Shown: positions 1-5,597 of the stretch, one piece after another
How positions within the stretch are numbered: position 1 is the stretch's first letter
Layout: each line of letters begins with the position of its first letter
Assembly: GCA_030603495.1 (NCBI GenBank)
Contig: JAUVXR010000057.1
Location: 1 to 5,597, forward strand
Length of the DNA: 5,597 nt
DNA from: a bacterium
Lineage (GTDB): Bacteria > Armatimonadota > Zipacnadia > Zipacnadales > Zipacnadaceae
Reading direction: 5' to 3'
Made by a program: the position numbers and the translations under genes
The notes under the pieces: generated by a model
What the model was told of the DNA's origin: nothing
Database searches by the model: none
The model's input: only the letters and a program-made list of their open reading frames with translations

Positions 1-1787
1 GGCGGCACCTCTATGCGTGATATAGCACCACGAAGAGACCGCGTCTCGCCCCAGATAGCCTTGATGCTGCCAGAGCGCTGCTGTCTAGCAATCAGGTCGG
101 CTATTATCGATGCGTCGGTCATAGCTCGACGCCCGCCGATGGTGGTCACCTCCAGCTTTGCGGACAAAAACCCCGCCCGGTCAAATGTGGAGCGTACCGA
201 TACCACGTTGACCGTGGTATCTATGTCGATCGTCTTATGGCCCTGGACTGTGGCTTCTGAGTCTAGGCCAATCGTGTATCCCGGTCTGAATACTTGCCAA
301 AACTCAGTGGCCGAGACTTCATAGAAATCCGCAACGGTGTCATGTTGTTTGAGCCATCTAAGGGCCATATCACACAAAGCATTCGCCGTCAAGACGGGGT
401 GATAGAAAAAGGAATCATCTGGGGCTGCCGAGCTAATCTCGAATTCTATCATACGCTCGCGACGTCCGTAGGTCGTCTCCGCATTTGTGTTGCGAATGAA
501 ACCATCGTCTAGGTCCAGCTCATACGGCGCTGACATTTCTCGTGAGCTATCGGCCAGGACCGCATTCTCCGTTCTGGGATACACTCTAGTGACAAACTCG
601 GTAAGATCGGTCTTAGGCACCAATTGAGTCAACCGCACGTACGTTTCGTCGGGTTCCTCCAAACCAGAGGCAATGATGCCGGAAGGAGAGAAGCTGGTGA
701 ACCACTGCACCTCCATCATTCCGTAATTCAGCTCTGCTCGGAAATGTCCACTTATCTGCTCTTGCAACCGCTTCAGAGCCGCCAGCACAGTCATACCTGA
801 GATTAGATCGTAAGCAGGCTCATCCGTTGCCGCATACCCCGCCTGTTTCCAGGTGGCAGGCGCATAAGCCATGATCAGGTTCAAAGCATCCGCCGTGGGC
901 ACATCGGTATAGATCCGTGCATCGCGGATCTCGATCTCATCCGTGGCGGTAACGCCCAGCTTGTAAAAGCGTATCCAGAACCAGTTTCCCGCCGCATCTG
1001 TCGGCGTGACGCGCTCCCAATCTTCAGGCATGGTCCAGGTGATCTCGCCACTCTGGGCGAAGGTGTAGCTCCCGCTCTGTGTCCCATCCACCAGATCTGC
1101 AAGACCCGTCCAACCCCCCTCCTCAGCGAAATACTGTCCCTGTAGCGCGCCGGTTTCGCTCGGGTTTGGCGTTTCAAAGTCCAAGTAAGCACGATCGAAA
1201 CGGGTATCGAATCCCACATAGAGATACTCATACAAGAGACATTGGCAAGGATCACTCCATTGCGGCTGTCTCAACTTGCACGATTCGAAAGTAGTCAGGT
1301 CGGGGAGCGTGGGATCGCCAGCGGCGTTGTCATACATCCCTGGTCGGTCCCGATCATAGTCTGTGCAGTCTGACTCCATGCTCAACCAACGCACCCGCCC
1401 CCGCACGACAGTATCCGGAGCCACCATGCGTGCCCATCCCCGCTCCGAGATATTCAGTTCGGGAATAATCCGCGTAGCCAATTCGGAAAGTCGATCCTGA
1501 CCCGTAACGTAAAAGGTCGAGCCGCCCAGATTCATGGTCGGCTCGATACCTGAGATTGGTCCCGAACTCAACGCCTGTTCGATCTCCTCCAGCGTACCAT
1601 ACAGATCCAGTCGCCGCCCTTCAGCCAACAACGTATCGTTCGCCAGCGTCGCCCAGCACTCCACATGCCATTCACCCGCCCCATCGACCACCTCGGTATA
1701 GTTCCAGTCCCAGATCTCGTCAACGATACCTAACTCGGCACCGGCTGCGCTGAAGATGTGCGCGTGTAGATTGTCCACTCGTTCCAT
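1..1787 (-). CDS. Tail hub / tail tip protein (gp27-like hub or minor tail protein), 3' end outside window
   Basis: Read from an ATG at 1787, this frame has no stop for 595 codons and leaves the window still open; I checked every codon. The role inferred is the structural hub closing the distal tail and carrying the receptor-contact apparatus. Support: it directly follows the tape measure gene; the N-terminus (VDNLHAHIFSAAGAELGIVD) is a beta-rich start of a type seen in hub proteins; residues about 188-296 look like an inserted beta-sandwich (GW.GL.DLVDGT, then SGEITWTMPEDW, then NWFWIRFY); residues about 390-560 resemble hub domains (DLTEFVTRVYPRTENA, YGRRERMIEFEI, and FRPGYTIGLDSE at about 500). 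Cysteines 141, 170, 181 and 183 form a cluster. The start overlaps the tape measure stop by one base (TGATG). Shine-Dalgarno pairing is weak (AGAGG, 12 nt upstream), so coupling is likely. No peptidase or lysozyme motif was seen. The family call rests on pattern memory. Tail hub is fairly secure; the exact family is not. Confidence 0.8.
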   Translation of the reverse strand, partial: MERVDNLHAHIFSAAGAELGIVDEIWDWNYTEVVDGAGEWHVECWATLANDTLLAEGRRLDLYGTLEEIEQALSSGPISGIEPTMNLGGSTFYVTGQDRLSELATRIIPELNISERGWARMVAPDTVVRGRVRWLSMESDCTDYDRDRPGMYDNAAGDPTLPDLTTFESCKLRQPQWSDPCQCLLYEYLYVGFDTRFDRAYLDFETPNPSETGALQGQYFAEEGGWTGLADLVDGTQSGSYTFAQSGEITWTMPEDWERVTPTDAAGNWFWIRFYKLGVTATDEIEIRDARIYTDVPTADALNLIMAYAPATWKQAGYAATDEPAYDLISGMTVLAALKRLQEQISGHFRAELNYGMMEVQWFTSFSPSGIIASGLEEPDETYVRLTQLVPKTDLTEFVTRVYPRTENAVLADSSREMSAPYELDLDDGFIRNTNAETTYGRRERMIEFEISSAAPDDSFFYHPVLTANALCDMALRWLKQHDTVADFYEVSATEFWQVFRPGYTIGLDSEATVQGHKTIDIDTTVNVVSVRSTFDRAGFLSAKLEVTTIGGRRAMTDASIIADLIARQQRSGSIKAIWGETRSLRGAISRIEVP

Positions 1788-4537
1788 CAGGATAGATAGC
1801 CTCTATGTTTCAGCTCGCGGATCACGACCTCCCCAGCCCGATCGGGATCAGGCGAAACAACGACGATATCCCGAAAAGTGACCGTCGTGCTCGGGCCCTC
1901 AACAACAGCGGGCATCCCTTCTGCTGGGGCCATCCCCCCTCCTCCTCTGAACGAAGGTGGTGATCTACCCAGCCCAAGATCCTGCCAATTCTGCGGAAGC
2001 AGCTTTCTCCATTCCTCTTTCCATGTCCAGGGCCGTGTTATGACCGCAATATCTTGCGCCAACAACTCCAAAGCTCCTGCGACCGCTGCCGTCCACCCAC
2101 TTCGCGTCTCTTCACTGGCCAACTCATCGATGACTCCTTGCGCCAATCCCTTTGCTAGGCCCTTGCCAATGGCTATCATCATGAGGTTGATATTGAGCGC
2201 AGCAGCGCCCAAATTCGTCGCAAGAGTCTCCATCGTGGCGCTGGCCTCTATCTCACTGCCAAGCAATTCGCGGATGCCTTCTATGATACCCGAGGCCAGT
2301 GTGTGACCGATCGTTTCCAGCGTCGCTTGGGTATCCGCGCTCTCGGCCCACTCACGGCCCCGCGCGGTGATGGGAATCAACCATTCAGCAGCAGCCAGTA
2401 GGCCTTCTTTCAGCCATTCGGGAATCTGTGCGCCGATAGCAATGATAGCAGCCCTCAGACCCCCTATACGCTCCATCACAGGCAAGAATTCACCAGCAAC
2501 TTCGATCTTCTCGCCAGTCTTTTCCCATGTGCCCAGCCACATCTTTTCCAAAGCTCCGGAAATCTTGTCCCTGAGTCCGGTGAGATCGACCACCACTCCA
2601 GCGAAGAGAAGTGCGGTCTCCACAGCCTCGATCAAACCCTTCTCCTCGAAGATTGTCCTTACGGTGTTCCATTTGCGCTGTATGCTCGCAAAGAGCTCGC
2701 TGAAATCCACTTCCACCCCAAGAATATCCAGGGCTGCCTCGAGGGCCCCAACGAAACCCTCGGCAGCAAGTACGTCCCTGAACTCCCGAAAAGCTTCGGG
2801 CAGCTTTCCCAGGAACTCTTTCGTCCTCTCGATCGCAATCGGAATCTTGGTCTGTAGCCATTCCTGCATCGATCGAAGGGCGGGCTGCAATTTGCCTTCC
2901 CAAAACGTCCTCACCCACGCGCGGATGCCCCCCCAGTCTTTGGCCCAGGCAACGGCCAGTAATCCCACGGCCGCGATGATCAATCCCATCGGGCTTATCA
3001 GAGCGCCAAGCCCTGAGACCAGGGGCCCCAGAACCATGAGCACCGGCCCCAGAGCCGCTGCTATGGCCAGGAATCCCAGGATGTTCGTCTGCACCGACTC
3101 GTCCAGATTGTCGAACCAATCCACGGCCTTCTGTAGCGTGGCGATGAGAGGAGGTATGTACCGATCCATGAGCATGCGCAGTTTGGGTATCACCATCTTG
3201 CCCACGCTGATAGCGATGTCCCGAAACCGGTTTCGCACGATCTTCAACTGCTCCGTGAACGTCGCATAGCGCTTCTCGGCTTCCTCTGTCAGCGCAGTGT
3301 TCTCTCCCCAGGCATCTGACGAGAGATTTATCGCTCGCCGGAACAGATCCCCCGCACCCGAGGCCCGCAGTAGGGCATCCCGGACTCGAATTTCGGACAT
3401 CCCCAGCTCATCCAATACGCCGAAGACATCCTCGCCCTCGTCCCGCATTTTGCCCAATCCCTCGACGAAGGCGACGATGGCCGCCGCCGCATCCATCTCG
3501 AACAGATCCCGAAACTTGCCCACGTGCATCCCGGCCACTTCAGCGAACTTCTTCAGCTTCTTCGGATCCAGCGCCTGGCCTTGGCTCGCCTCCAGTTGGG
3601 CCAGCATTTCCTGGGTGGCGGCGATCTCATCCCTGTATTTGTCTATCCTCAACTGGTTGGCCATTCGGGTAGATTCTTTGGTCTTCTCGGTGAATTCGCT
3701 CTGTCTCTGCTCCGCTATGTCCAGCTGACTGTTCAACAAGCCCAGCATGGCCTGCTGTTTGGCCATCGCCTCGGTATTGTCCACCGCCCCGGTCGTGGCC
3801 GACCCGACCGCGCTGGCCATGTCGATCATCACCCGAGAGAAGGCCGAGCCACCCGCCTGGGCCTCGATTCCGACGCTGGACAGGCCCCCCGCCAGACCCA
3901 AGATCTGCGCGTTGCTCATCCCTATGATCGAGCCAGCCCCAGCCAAGCGCAGACCCATCGCCACGATCTCCGACTCTGTGGTCGCCAGGTTGTTCCCCAG
4001 CGCCACTACGGTGCTGCCCAATTCATCGAATTGGTCTTGTGGCATCTGGGTGATGTTCGCCAGTCGCGCCAGCTGAACCGCCGCATCGGTGGAGGACATA
4101 TTGGTCGCCACGCCCAGGTTGATCATCGTCTCGGTAAAATCCAGCAGATATTCCTTAGCGATGCCCAACTGCCCGGCCGCTTCCATCACCGCCGCGATCT
4201 CTTCCGGGGTCGCAGAGATGCGCTTCGACATCGCTCGGATGCCCGTCTCCAGTGCGGCGTATTCCTCCTCGGTGGCGTCCACCGTCTTGCGCACGCCGGC
4301 GAAGGCGGTCTCAAAATCGGCGGCCGCCTTGACCACCAGTGTCCCGAGCCCCAGGATCGGTGCGGTGACCTTCATGGATAACTGCTTGCCCACAGCGGCC
4401 ATCTTCTTGCCCACGCTCTTGAGGGCGCCGGAGAGCTTCGCCTCGATGCTCTTGTGCGCCCTCTTGAGGTCTTCGTTTAAGCCGCTCAGATCGGCCGTTA
4501 TCGGGACCTTGGCCCTGCCCAGGATCGATTCAGTCAC
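1787..4537 (-). CDS. Phage tail tape measure protein (TP901 type)
   Basis: A 916-residue tape measure protein: it spans the inside of the tail tube, sets tail length during assembly and is ejected at infection. Visible layout: residues 1-60 amphipathic and Lys-rich; about 65-250 resembles the TP901/PhageMin_Tail core (AAADFETAFAGVRKTVDATE, then MEAAGQLGIA, LGVATNMSSTDAAVQLARLA and AGGSAFSRVM); about 256-320 is a charged coiled coil that seems to interrupt the core, which resumes to about 440; 484-531 is strongly hydrophobic (GFLAIAAALGPVLMVLGPLV and on), as expected of the segment that reaches the host membrane; 586-655 holds two copies of a 40-residue repeat; a GGGG linker at 865-868 leads to a short beta-like C-terminus (TVTFRDIVVVSP). 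At about 0.15 nm per residue the tail would be roughly 130-140 nm (inference). The start is GTG at 4537 with AGGGAAGGAAG 7 nt upstream, overlapping the upstream stop by 8 nt. No peptidoglycan hydrolase motif was seen. Confidence 0.96.
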   Translation of the reverse strand: MTESILGRAKVPITADLSGLNEDLKRAHKSIEAKLSGALKSVGKKMAAVGKQLSMKVTAPILGLGTLVVKAAADFETAFAGVRKTVDATEEEYAALETGIRAMSKRISATPEEIAAVMEAAGQLGIAKEYLLDFTETMINLGVATNMSSTDAAVQLARLANITQMPQDQFDELGSTVVALGNNLATTESEIVAMGLRLAGAGSIIGMSNAQILGLAGGLSSVGIEAQAGGSAFSRVMIDMASAVGSATTGAVDNTEAMAKQQAMLGLLNSQLDIAEQRQSEFTEKTKESTRMANQLRIDKYRDEIAATQEMLAQLEASQGQALDPKKLKKFAEVAGMHVGKFRDLFEMDAAAAIVAFVEGLGKMRDEGEDVFGVLDELGMSEIRVRDALLRASGAGDLFRRAINLSSDAWGENTALTEEAEKRYATFTEQLKIVRNRFRDIAISVGKMVIPKLRMLMDRYIPPLIATLQKAVDWFDNLDESVQTNILGFLAIAAALGPVLMVLGPLVSGLGALISPMGLIIAAVGLLAVAWAKDWGGIRAWVRTFWEGKLQPALRSMQEWLQTKIPIAIERTKEFLGKLPEAFREFRDVLAAEGFVGALEAALDILGVEVDFSELFASIQRKWNTVRTIFEEKGLIEAVETALLFAGVVVDLTGLRDKISGALEKMWLGTWEKTGEKIEVAGEFLPVMERIGGLRAAIIAIGAQIPEWLKEGLLAAAEWLIPITARGREWAESADTQATLETIGHTLASGIIEGIRELLGSEIEASATMETLATNLGAAALNINLMMIAIGKGLAKGLAQGVIDELASEETRSGWTAAVAGALELLAQDIAVITRPWTWKEEWRKLLPQNWQDLGLGRSPPSFRGGGGMAPAEGMPAVVEGPSTTVTFRDIVVVSPDPDRAGEVVIRELKHRGYLS
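2573..2782 (-). repeat. Diverged tandem 40-residue repeat inside the tape measure protein
   Basis: Tape measure residues 586-615 and 626-655 align without gaps at a period of exactly 40. Eleven of 30 residues are identical: R587/R627, G594/G634, A598/A638, E600/E640, A602/A642, L603/L643, G607/G647, V608/V648, V610/V650, D611/D651 and L615/L655. The shared form is 'R....(E)..G...A.E.AL...GV.VD...L', which looks like a helix-turn-strand unit. DNA copies are about 2693-2782 and 2573-2662. The resemblance is at the protein level only, suggesting an old duplication. Confidence 0.7.
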
Positions 4538-5329
4538 CGCTTTGCTTCCTTCCCTGTTGCTGGCGCTTTGCGGCCATGCGCTTCACTATCTCTGCGTGGT
4601 CATGGCCACGCTTGGCAGCCTCATCCCCACTCAACTTCTTCGCTGCCGGCATGCGCATAAGCCTCCTCAGCGACGGGAGTCGCTTGGCTCGCCCCAATGC
4701 CGCGATATGCCACGCCAGCCATGCCGCCCGCTGGCGTTCGCGGTCGTAGCGCCATGCCGCTGCCTCGAATGCCAGCGCCGTCTCTCGGGGCGTCATTCGC
4801 CAGAACTCGCCCACCGACAGGCCAACCTTCAGCGCGTCAGCCAGGAGCGTCGGCCAATGCCACCCCTGGCTCAGTCCCCTGGGGGGGATTCGTCGGCCTC
4901 CAGATCGTTCGGCAGATCGAACTCGAGCGGGGAATAGCTGAGTACCTCCGCCAGAGCTTCAAAGACGGCCACCAGCGCTGCCCGGAATCCTGCAGTATCG
5001 AGAATATCCCAGGCGTCGTTGAGCGCGTAGGGCCGGCTGCCATCGCGGGCATCGCGCCGGCCCCCCTCCAACCCCACGAGCAACAGCTGTACCAGATCGC
5101 CCATGCTCAGAGTCATCTCAGAGATTGTGCTGGCGATCTGCAGTATTGGCTTGCCGGTCACTCGCTCCGCCCGGAATATGGCCCGGTTGGTGAATAGGAT
5201 CGGATAGCTCTGATCTCCTGCTTGCAGGAAAGCTTCGCCCCGCGCCCCGGCGCCACGGGATTCTCGCTGCCTTTTCGGCCGACGGCCGTTTTCCCTTTGT
5301 GGCCGACGGCCACTTTCCCTTTGGGCCAT
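4530..5329 (-). CDS. Tail assembly chaperone, long -1 frameshift product (GT-type fusion)
   Basis: The proposed protein is read from ATG 5329 to CCA at 4882-4880, slips back one base, and continues from AGG at 4880-4878 to TGA at 4530-4532: 150 + 116 = 266 residues. It is the analogue of lambda gpGT, which binds the tape measure and recruits tube subunits. The downstream part carries GWHWPTLLADALKVGL followed by VGEFWRMTPRETALAF and an Arg/Lys-rich tail. This matches the pattern W..L...L..GL....FW..TP.E that I recall for Rcc01693-type tail chaperones (Phage_TAC_6). The conserved WHWPTLL part lies upstream of the first ATG, GTG or TTG in that frame (GTG 4814). The frame has been open only since a TGA at 4959-4961, with no canonical start before 4814, so frameshifting best explains how the whole domain is made. 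Its end overlaps the tape measure start. A stand-alone 94-aa protein from GTG 4814 is possible but would lack half the motif. Confidence 0.82.
4545..4555 (-). promoter_or_regulatory. Ribosome binding site of the tape measure gene
   Basis: The purine run AGGGAAGGAAG ends 7 nt before GTG 4537. It lies inside the end of the frameshifted chaperone frame. It decides the GTG start, which gives the N-terminus MTESILGRAK and an 8-nt overlap (GTGACTGA) with the upstream stop. Confidence 0.7.
4839..4871 (-). promoter_or_regulatory. Predicted frameshift-stimulating hairpin
   Basis: In the mRNA, AGCCAGG (4871-4865) pairs perfectly with CCUGGCU (4845-4839), giving a 7-bp, GC-rich stem around a 19-nt loop. 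Inside the loop, GGC (4861-4859) can pair with GCC (4854-4852). The stem starts 8 nt after the last base of the slippery heptamer, within the range typical for stimulators of -1 frameshifting. The pairing is seen in the sequence; its function is inferred and a pseudoknot was not excluded. Confidence 0.5.
4871..5329 (-). CDS. Tail assembly chaperone, short product (G-type, GTA gp10/TAC_11-like)
   Basis: A 152-residue product of normal decoding, made in excess over the frameshifted form in this class of system. The core begins around residue 29 (ARGEAFLQAGDQSYPILFTN), then RAIFRAERVTGKPILQI, a dipped segment MTLSMGDLVQLLLVGLEG and an acidic C-terminus ending ESPPGD. This fits the pattern I recall for the gene-transfer-agent gp10-like chaperone family: RGE, a short beta hairpin, 'al...E...g.sl..i' and 's..dl..ll..GL'. 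Those proteins usually start just before the RGE, so the first 28 or so residues are an extra Arg-rich extension (10 Arg in 30 residues) built from QRE-S/N-GRRP repeats. ATG 5329 lies 1 nt after the tube stop, with GGAG 5 nt upstream (5335-5338). No later ATG start is seen before the core. The chaperone role is well supported by position and motifs; membership of the exact family is moderately sure. Confidence 0.9.
   Translation of the reverse strand: MAQRESGRRPQRENGRRPKRQRESRGAGARGEAFLQAGDQSYPILFTNRAIFRAERVTGKPILQIASTISEMTLSMGDLVQLLLVGLEGGRRDARDGSRPYALNDAWDILDTAGFRAALVAVFEALAEVLSYSPLEFDLPNDLEADESPPGD
4880..4886 (-). promoter_or_regulatory. -1 ribosomal frameshift slippery site C CCC CCA
   Basis: The short chaperone frame reads TCC CCC CCA GGG GAC TGA here. 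The heptamer C_CCC_CCA fits X_XXY_YYZ with X = Y = C and Z = A, letting both tRNAs re-pair one base upstream. The -1 frame is exactly the one that encodes the FWRMTPRE domain. The zero-frame stop lies only two codons after the heptamer. Poly-C slip sites are less usual than G_GGA_AAx or A_AAA_AAG types in phage tail genes. One extra C in a homopolymer of seven would instead fuse the two frames outright, so an assembly error is the main alternative. Confidence 0.75.
5277..5324 (-). repeat. Two tandem 24-bp repeats at the start of the chaperone gene
   Basis: Units 5277-5300 and 5301-5324 match at 21 of 24 positions. They keep the reading frame and encode the repeated peptide QRE-S/N-GRRP. Each centres on a palindrome around a single central base: CGGCCG-A-CGGCCG (5276-5288) and GTGGCCG-A-CGGCCAC (5299-5313). 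The outer pair differs between the copies but stays complementary (C5276/G5288 against T5300/A5312). In mRNA each could form a 5- or 6-bp hairpin with a three-base loop, 14-51 nt after the start codon. Confidence 0.85.
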
Positions 5330-5330
5330 G

Positions 5331-5597
5331 TTAGCTCCAATACTCCGACCACTCGCCGTCGATCGTCAAATCAGCGGAAACGGTCGCCTCCCCCTGATCC
5401 GGCATCCCACTGCTCAGCCCAGTCACCACCGCATAGGCATACTCCAAGGCTGCCTCAGATTCCTGGCGCTGGACCTGGATCAACTCGCCAAGCCGCATCG
5501 CATCCCGCAAGGCCGCATAAGCCAGACAATCGGGCACATACAGCGCATCCAGCGATACGGTAGCACCATACCGCCCAGGGATCACTCGCCTAGCCCG
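5331..5597 (-). CDS. Major tail tube protein, C-terminal 88 residues (5' end outside window)
   Basis: The frame is open to the right edge of the window, so the start lies beyond it; the GTG at 5585 is an internal codon (RARRVIPG) rather than the start. The product is the subunit that stacks in rings to form the tail tube. The visible part shows the C-terminal half of a tube-type beta sandwich: RRVIPGRYGATVSLDALY, AYAALRDAMRLGELIQV, LEYAYAVVTGLSSGMP and ATVSADLTIDGEWS. The sequence 'G....tvsl..ly', then 'ay..L.dA...Ge...v', then 'A.vt.ls...p....a..s..l...Gew' is typical of phage tail tube proteins of the TP901-1 or GTA kind. It ends in TAA, 1 nt before the chaperone start, which is the standard tail gene order. 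Tube proteins are made in large amounts, and the repeats just downstream may help lower chaperone translation relative to it (speculation). Confidence 0.9.
   Translation of the reverse strand, partial: RARRVIPGRYGATVSLDALYVPDCLAYAALRDAMRLGELIQVQRQESEAALEYAYAVVTGLSSGMPDQGEATVSADLTIDGEWSEYWS

Follow-up and report, generated by a model that had tools for sequence, protein, structure and literature searches.

The analysed DNA (the window, an entire contig of 5597 nt from a 2.67-Mb Dehalococcoidia bin) very probably carries a tail assembly chaperone gene of the lambda G/GT type from a temperate siphophage, whose longer fusion product is made by a -1 slip on the heptamer C_CCC_CCA. The first chaperone domain (D1) is encoded in the 0 frame; the second (D2) overlaps it in the -1 frame and has no start of its own. 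The phage genes of the window, all on the minus strand, encode the tail tube protein, D1, D2, the tape measure protein and a long downstream protein, so that the D1/D2 pair sits between the tube and tape measure genes, as in lambda (Table 1). The end of D2, including its stop codon, overlaps the tape measure gene by 8 nt. The tube gene also resembles Pfam Phage_tail_2, with an E-value (0.0011) under the cut-off. The long protein encoded beyond the tape measure gene (window positions 3-1787, minus strand) matched no family in Pfam, PHROGs or NCBIfam.

Table 1. Genes and putative recoding elements of the 5597-nt window
Feature	Position	Strand	Remarks
Tail tube (major tail protein) gene, 3′ part	5331..5597	-	Truncated by the contig end; PHROG 1407 major tail protein, E 5e-8
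D1, short tail assembly chaperone, 0-frame product	4871..5329	-	152 aa, ATG to TGA
Shine-Dalgarno-like GGAGG, putative stimulator	4897..4901	-	10 nt upstream of the heptamer; kept in a 97.8% identical copy
Slip heptamer C_CCC_CCA	4880..4886	-	Seven Cs (4887-4881), then A4880
Predicted mRNA hairpin, putative stimulator	4839..4871	-	Begins 8 nt after the heptamer
D2, second chaperone domain, -1 frame post-slip	4530..4886	-	118 residues from the slip; predicted fusion 266 aa
First canonical start (GTG) in the D2 frame	4812..4814	-	48 nt inside the conserved domain
Tape measure gene	1787..4537	-	PF10145, E 4e-15; TIGR01760, E 7e-49

D1 matched PF11836 (Phage_TAC_11/GTA-gp10) with an E-value of 6e-5 and 23.5 bits, slightly below the curated cut-off of 27.8. 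The same Pfam family, which is independent of the D1 profile used in the survey described below, was matched by the D1 proteins of 17 of 30 relatives. The AlphaFold2 model of D1 (pLDDT 85.6) had named phage tail assembly chaperones among its best predicted-structure matches in BFVD. By these sequence or fold matches the first domain is assigned to the tail assembly chaperones, with the window's own PF11836 score under the cut-off. The D1 model had no significant match in the PDB, where Foldseek and VIA-align gave no convincing solved relative, and profile searches of the PDB with D1 and D2 returned only unrelated or repeat proteins. Protein searches with D1 gave zero matches in phage records and viral contigs, and zero in a further 100 whole genomes from relatives of the window's genome; in both sets D1 relatives are either too diverged or absent.

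D2 exceeded the cut-off of PF09550 (Phage_TAC_6; E 2e-5, 25.4 bits against 23.4), matched PHROG 19318 (E 2e-16) and gave an AlphaFold2 model with a pLDDT of 89.0. The D2 of a human-gut Syntrophomonadaceae phage (L007:2501-2854) matched both Phage_TAC_6 and the lambda family Phage_tail_T (32.2 bits, cut-off 25.9) and, as the sole bridging relative, may link the two Pfam families. An unnamed 247-aa viral protein (A0A0K1LMC7) was matched by both the D1 and the D2 model. The Caulobacter phages Sansa and Seuss were considered as its source; chaperone slippage is annotated in both, but neither fusion is 247 aa long.

The initial annotation had proposed a lambda G/GT-like chaperone pair expressed through a -1 frameshift on C-CCC-CCA, with the conserved WHWPTLL segment of D2 lying upstream of any canonical start in its frame. 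The sequence features behind this proposal were confirmed. The 0 frame of D1 ends with GAA TCC CCC CCA GGG GAC TGA, in which the run of C is exactly seven and the heptamer occupies 4886-4880. The open stretch of the -1 frame extends from 4886 to 4530. Ahead of WHWPTLL it contains zero canonical starts, the first being the GTG at 4814-4812, and only a CUG codon overlaps the D1 stop.

The reading-frame relation was surveyed in relatives of D2 collected from viral contigs, genome contigs and phage records, and clustered at 75% D2 identity. When all forward ORFs were searched with a D1 profile, which had been trained on ORFs already in the -1 relation, D1 was found just upstream, with D2 in its -1 frame, in 292 of 293 loci (109 of 110 clusters). 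A profile-free check agreed: among the first 59 loci, nearly all had the -1-related ORF as their longest candidate. The arrangement proposed for the window is therefore strongly supported by its relatives. The single +1 locus (L132:1109-1812) may reflect genuine +1 shifting, a D2 encoded as a separate gene or an indel in the assembly. Two loci considered as in-frame fusions (L058 and L060) turned out, from the full ORF list, to hold a normal -1 pair with G_GGA_AAG. In six phage records (L004, L005, L007, L012, L013 and L014) the two halves are annotated as separate ORFs, with the D2 start placed too late; most are called 'hypothetical protein', and 'tail assembly chaperone' appears in L014.

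If D2 were a separate gene, it would have to be translated by coupling at the junction, from the CUG at the D1 stop or from the GTG at 4814. Canonical starts at the D1/D2 junction do occur among the relatives: they are present in 16 of 30 gene transfer agent (GTA)-like loci, and a GTG was found in seven members of the L015 clade, although sister members lack it. Independent starts are otherwise sporadic (4 of 109 cluster representatives). In 105 of the 109 clusters the 45 nt upstream of the D2 domain hold no canonical start, yet 103 have a slip motif. In the window itself the GTG would remove 48 nt of the conserved domain, whereas the CUG is a non-standard start that lacks a ribosome-binding site at a suitable distance and is not conserved among relatives. 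We consider a separately initiated D2 very improbable.

The comparison with GTAs deserves separate treatment, since the initial annotation likened the two domains to GTA-type chaperones and took the latter to be encoded as separate genes. The Rhodobacter capsulatus GTA genes g10/g10.1 (PF11836; rcc01693 family, TIGR02216) have the same two domains in the same order, and D2 is mostly in the -1 frame. In RcGTA, g10 has been described as tail chaperone 1 with PF11836 and g10.5 as tail chaperone 2, and frameshifting is unmentioned there (PMC11409702). The closest matches of the rcc01693 family in our collection (L331 and L332) differ from the window in having an ATGA-type junction start. Among 30 alphaproteobacterial loci matching this family, which pool GTAs and prophages (hence 'GTA-like'; the TIGR02216 cut-off was reached in only 4 of 385 genomes), 16 have a canonical junction start, often ATGA. 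Separate genes are thus a correct description of these 16, but not of 12 others, which have only a -1 slip motif; two loci could be assigned to neither group. In several pairs without a junction start (L071/L335, L072/L333, L074/L348, L078/L350, L334 and L344) C_CCU_UUC (or C_CCU_UUU) lies at the start of the D2 domain; these sites encode PFP or PF in both frames, and several C_CCU_UUC sites coincide with a PFPW motif. The D2 of the window does not reach the cut-off of the rcc01693 family, scoring 18.7 bits against TIGR02216 (cut-off 56.1).

Slip motifs were searched in the 75 nt upstream of the D2 domain. In-phase X_XXY_YYZ heptamers were present in 67 of 109 clusters, compared with 15 and 7 in the other phases and a mean of 11.5 (maximum 22) in 500 codon shuffles. 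The tetramer C_CCT was even more strongly phased: 68 clusters had it in phase, 0 and 2 in the other phases, and 300 shuffles gave a mean of 9.9 (maximum 20). Either motif was present in 103 clusters, 36 of which had the tetramer C_CCU alone. Because of this in-phase excess and the -1 relation in 292 of 293 loci, we read the arrangement as programmed -1 frameshifting. The commonest motifs were A_AAC_CCU (18 clusters), G_GGA_AAG (9), G_GGC_CCU (8), C_CCA_AAC (7) and C_CCC_CCG (6), and the A-site codon in the TAC_11/TAC_6 chaperone family was most often proline. The CCU codon would be read by a tRNA-Pro with anticodon GGG, which would then pair anew with CCC, free of mismatches. Slippage of this tRNA on C_CCU fits the rule established in E. 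coli, by which cognate re-pairing in the A site matters most (PMC4066793). We found no description of the proline-rich slip sites of this family in the literature searched, which left out most subscription journals.

The C-rich heptamer of the window had been regarded as an unusual slip site. It is uncommon, C_CCC_CCR being present in 7 of 109 clusters and C_CCC_CCA in the window's cluster only, but it is not outside the known slip rules: CCCCCCG occurs in the six other clusters, and C_CC.C_CC.A and C_CC.C_CC.G are among the motifs listed as shifting at more than 0.10% in E. coli when no stimulator is present (PMC4066793). C_CCC_CCA requires near-cognate re-pairing in the A site and is therefore outside the strongest E. 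coli motifs. The bin has tRNA-Pro genes with anticodons UGG, GGG and CGG, which are relevant on the assumption that the bin is the host. No relevant report of CCCCCCA or CCCCCCG as a phage slip site was found in the literature searched. The initial annotation had suggested that an alignment of relatives would reveal whether the run of C and the -1 relation persist. The -1 relation does persist, and the position of the slip is constant in the window's closest clade, but the sequence at this position varies (CCCAAAC, AAAAAAC, CCCCCCA). About 100 related phage lineages appear to keep the -1 switch while its slip sequence changes, often to proline codons.

A run of C could also make RNA polymerase slip, and the resulting messages with eight Cs would encode the fusion directly, in frame. 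Seven Cs are short for this process, homopolymer slippage having been described at runs of nine A or T (PMC5009743), and the mixed motifs that accompany the -1 relation in the relatives (CCCAAAC, GGGAAAG, AAACCCT) suit slippage of tRNAs, not of the polymerase. We therefore regard transcriptional slippage as very improbable. A sequencing or assembly error hiding an eighth C and thus a simple fusion gene, for which the homopolymer in metagenome-assembled DNA might speak, can be dismissed as far as assemblies can tell, because an independently assembled copy (JAUVZB010000017.1, L061; in another Dehalococcoidia bin, CSMAG_1257), which differs from the window by 125 substitutions but no gap across 5585 nt (97.76% identity), has the same run of seven Cs. 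The -1 frame of this copy is closed by a TGA that leaves the last 19 nt before the D1 stop as the sole region for a shift. Programmed frameshifting thus remains the preferred reading.

The copy lies on a 41.5-kb contig with integrase, large terminase, portal, protease and capsid genes. This gene content makes a temperate phage the most likely identity of the element; the same genes on this relative set it apart from a host-encoded GTA cluster. Two adjoining, very similar genes with ParB-like N-termini lie beside the terminase gene (L329:18780-20000 and L330; about 38780-41435 of JAUVZB010000017.1). Glycosyltransferase-like N-termini were seen at L329:5873-7158 (about 25873-27158), an unusual site between the capsid and the neck/tail genes.

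Two putative stimulators flank the heptamer. The GGAGG element, which is also kept in the copy, pairs with the anti-Shine-Dalgarno sequence at -9.3 kcal/mol, within the strongest 5-8% of codon-shuffled versions. The predicted hairpin is only mildly better than shuffled sequences: over 66 nt its folding energy is -31.3 kcal/mol (z -1.85, 11 of 200 shuffles equally good), with a z that depends on the length folded (-2.3 for 65 nt, -1.08 for 91 nt). Across clusters both upstream anti-Shine-Dalgarno pairing (mean rank 0.22, Wilcoxon 4e-14) and downstream folding (mean z -1.15, 1e-10) exceeded the shuffles, with p-values that are optimistic because clusters were treated as independent and the anti-Shine-Dalgarno sequence was that of E. 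coli. Strong upstream pairing (-9.3 to -11.0 kcal/mol) was found in all seven C_CCC_CCR clusters, whereas the G_GGA_AAN clusters lacked it (median -3.2; Mann-Whitney p 0.0018, likewise optimistic). The association of proline-codon slip sites with matching stimulators is a correlational pattern of the family, seen in its sequences.

We infer the following mechanism. The majority of ribosomes would terminate at the TGA at 4873-4871 and release the 152-aa chaperone. A minority would be paused by GGAGG 10 nt upstream and the hairpin 8 nt downstream, and slip by -1 with two proline tRNAs on C_CCC_CCA, yielding the 266-aa fusion with its additional, putatively T-like domain. Judging from lambda, the task of the short form would be to coat the tape measure protein, and that of the fusion to bring in the tube protein.

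Lambda-type G/GT frameshifting has long been known and is widespread (PMC5009743; PMC10885494). The window shares with lambda the place between tube and tape measure, the -1 direction and a short chaperone accompanied by a C-terminally extended fusion; it differs in slipping on C_CCC_CCA instead of G_GGA_AAG, in its TAC_11/TAC_6 domains and in the upstream Shine-Dalgarno-like element. The -1 signals of E. coli dnaX and IS911 lie in different genes but have the same layout of heptamer, upstream Shine-Dalgarno-like stimulator and downstream structure, the last two being putative in the window. The phiCbK-like Caulobacter phages also extend a chaperone encoded ahead of the tape measure by a -1 frameshift (AAAAAAC, GGGAAAC; PMC3556154). 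This likeness is one of position and shift, and the A-site codon there is Asn, not Pro.

The gene pair adds to a known recoding system, and its slip site is uncommon rather than outlandish. It is about an even bet that the TAC_11/TAC_6 chaperones are a recoding group of their own, which would slip mainly on proline codons (C_CCU, sometimes C_CCR), combine weaker motifs with Shine-Dalgarno-like and hairpin stimulators but do without these at the strong G_GGA_AAN, and keep the switch in some GTA-like elements while others have swapped it for a start codon. With these results a classic recoding switch is extended to a family that annotations usually give as a pair of unrelated hypothetical proteins; this covers phages with various hosts as well as some of the GTA-like elements. 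Annotators should join the D1 and D2 ORFs. With motifs that vary at one fixed position and stimulators that seem to track motif strength, the family offers a natural experiment on the tuning of -1 frameshifting, notably on proline codons.
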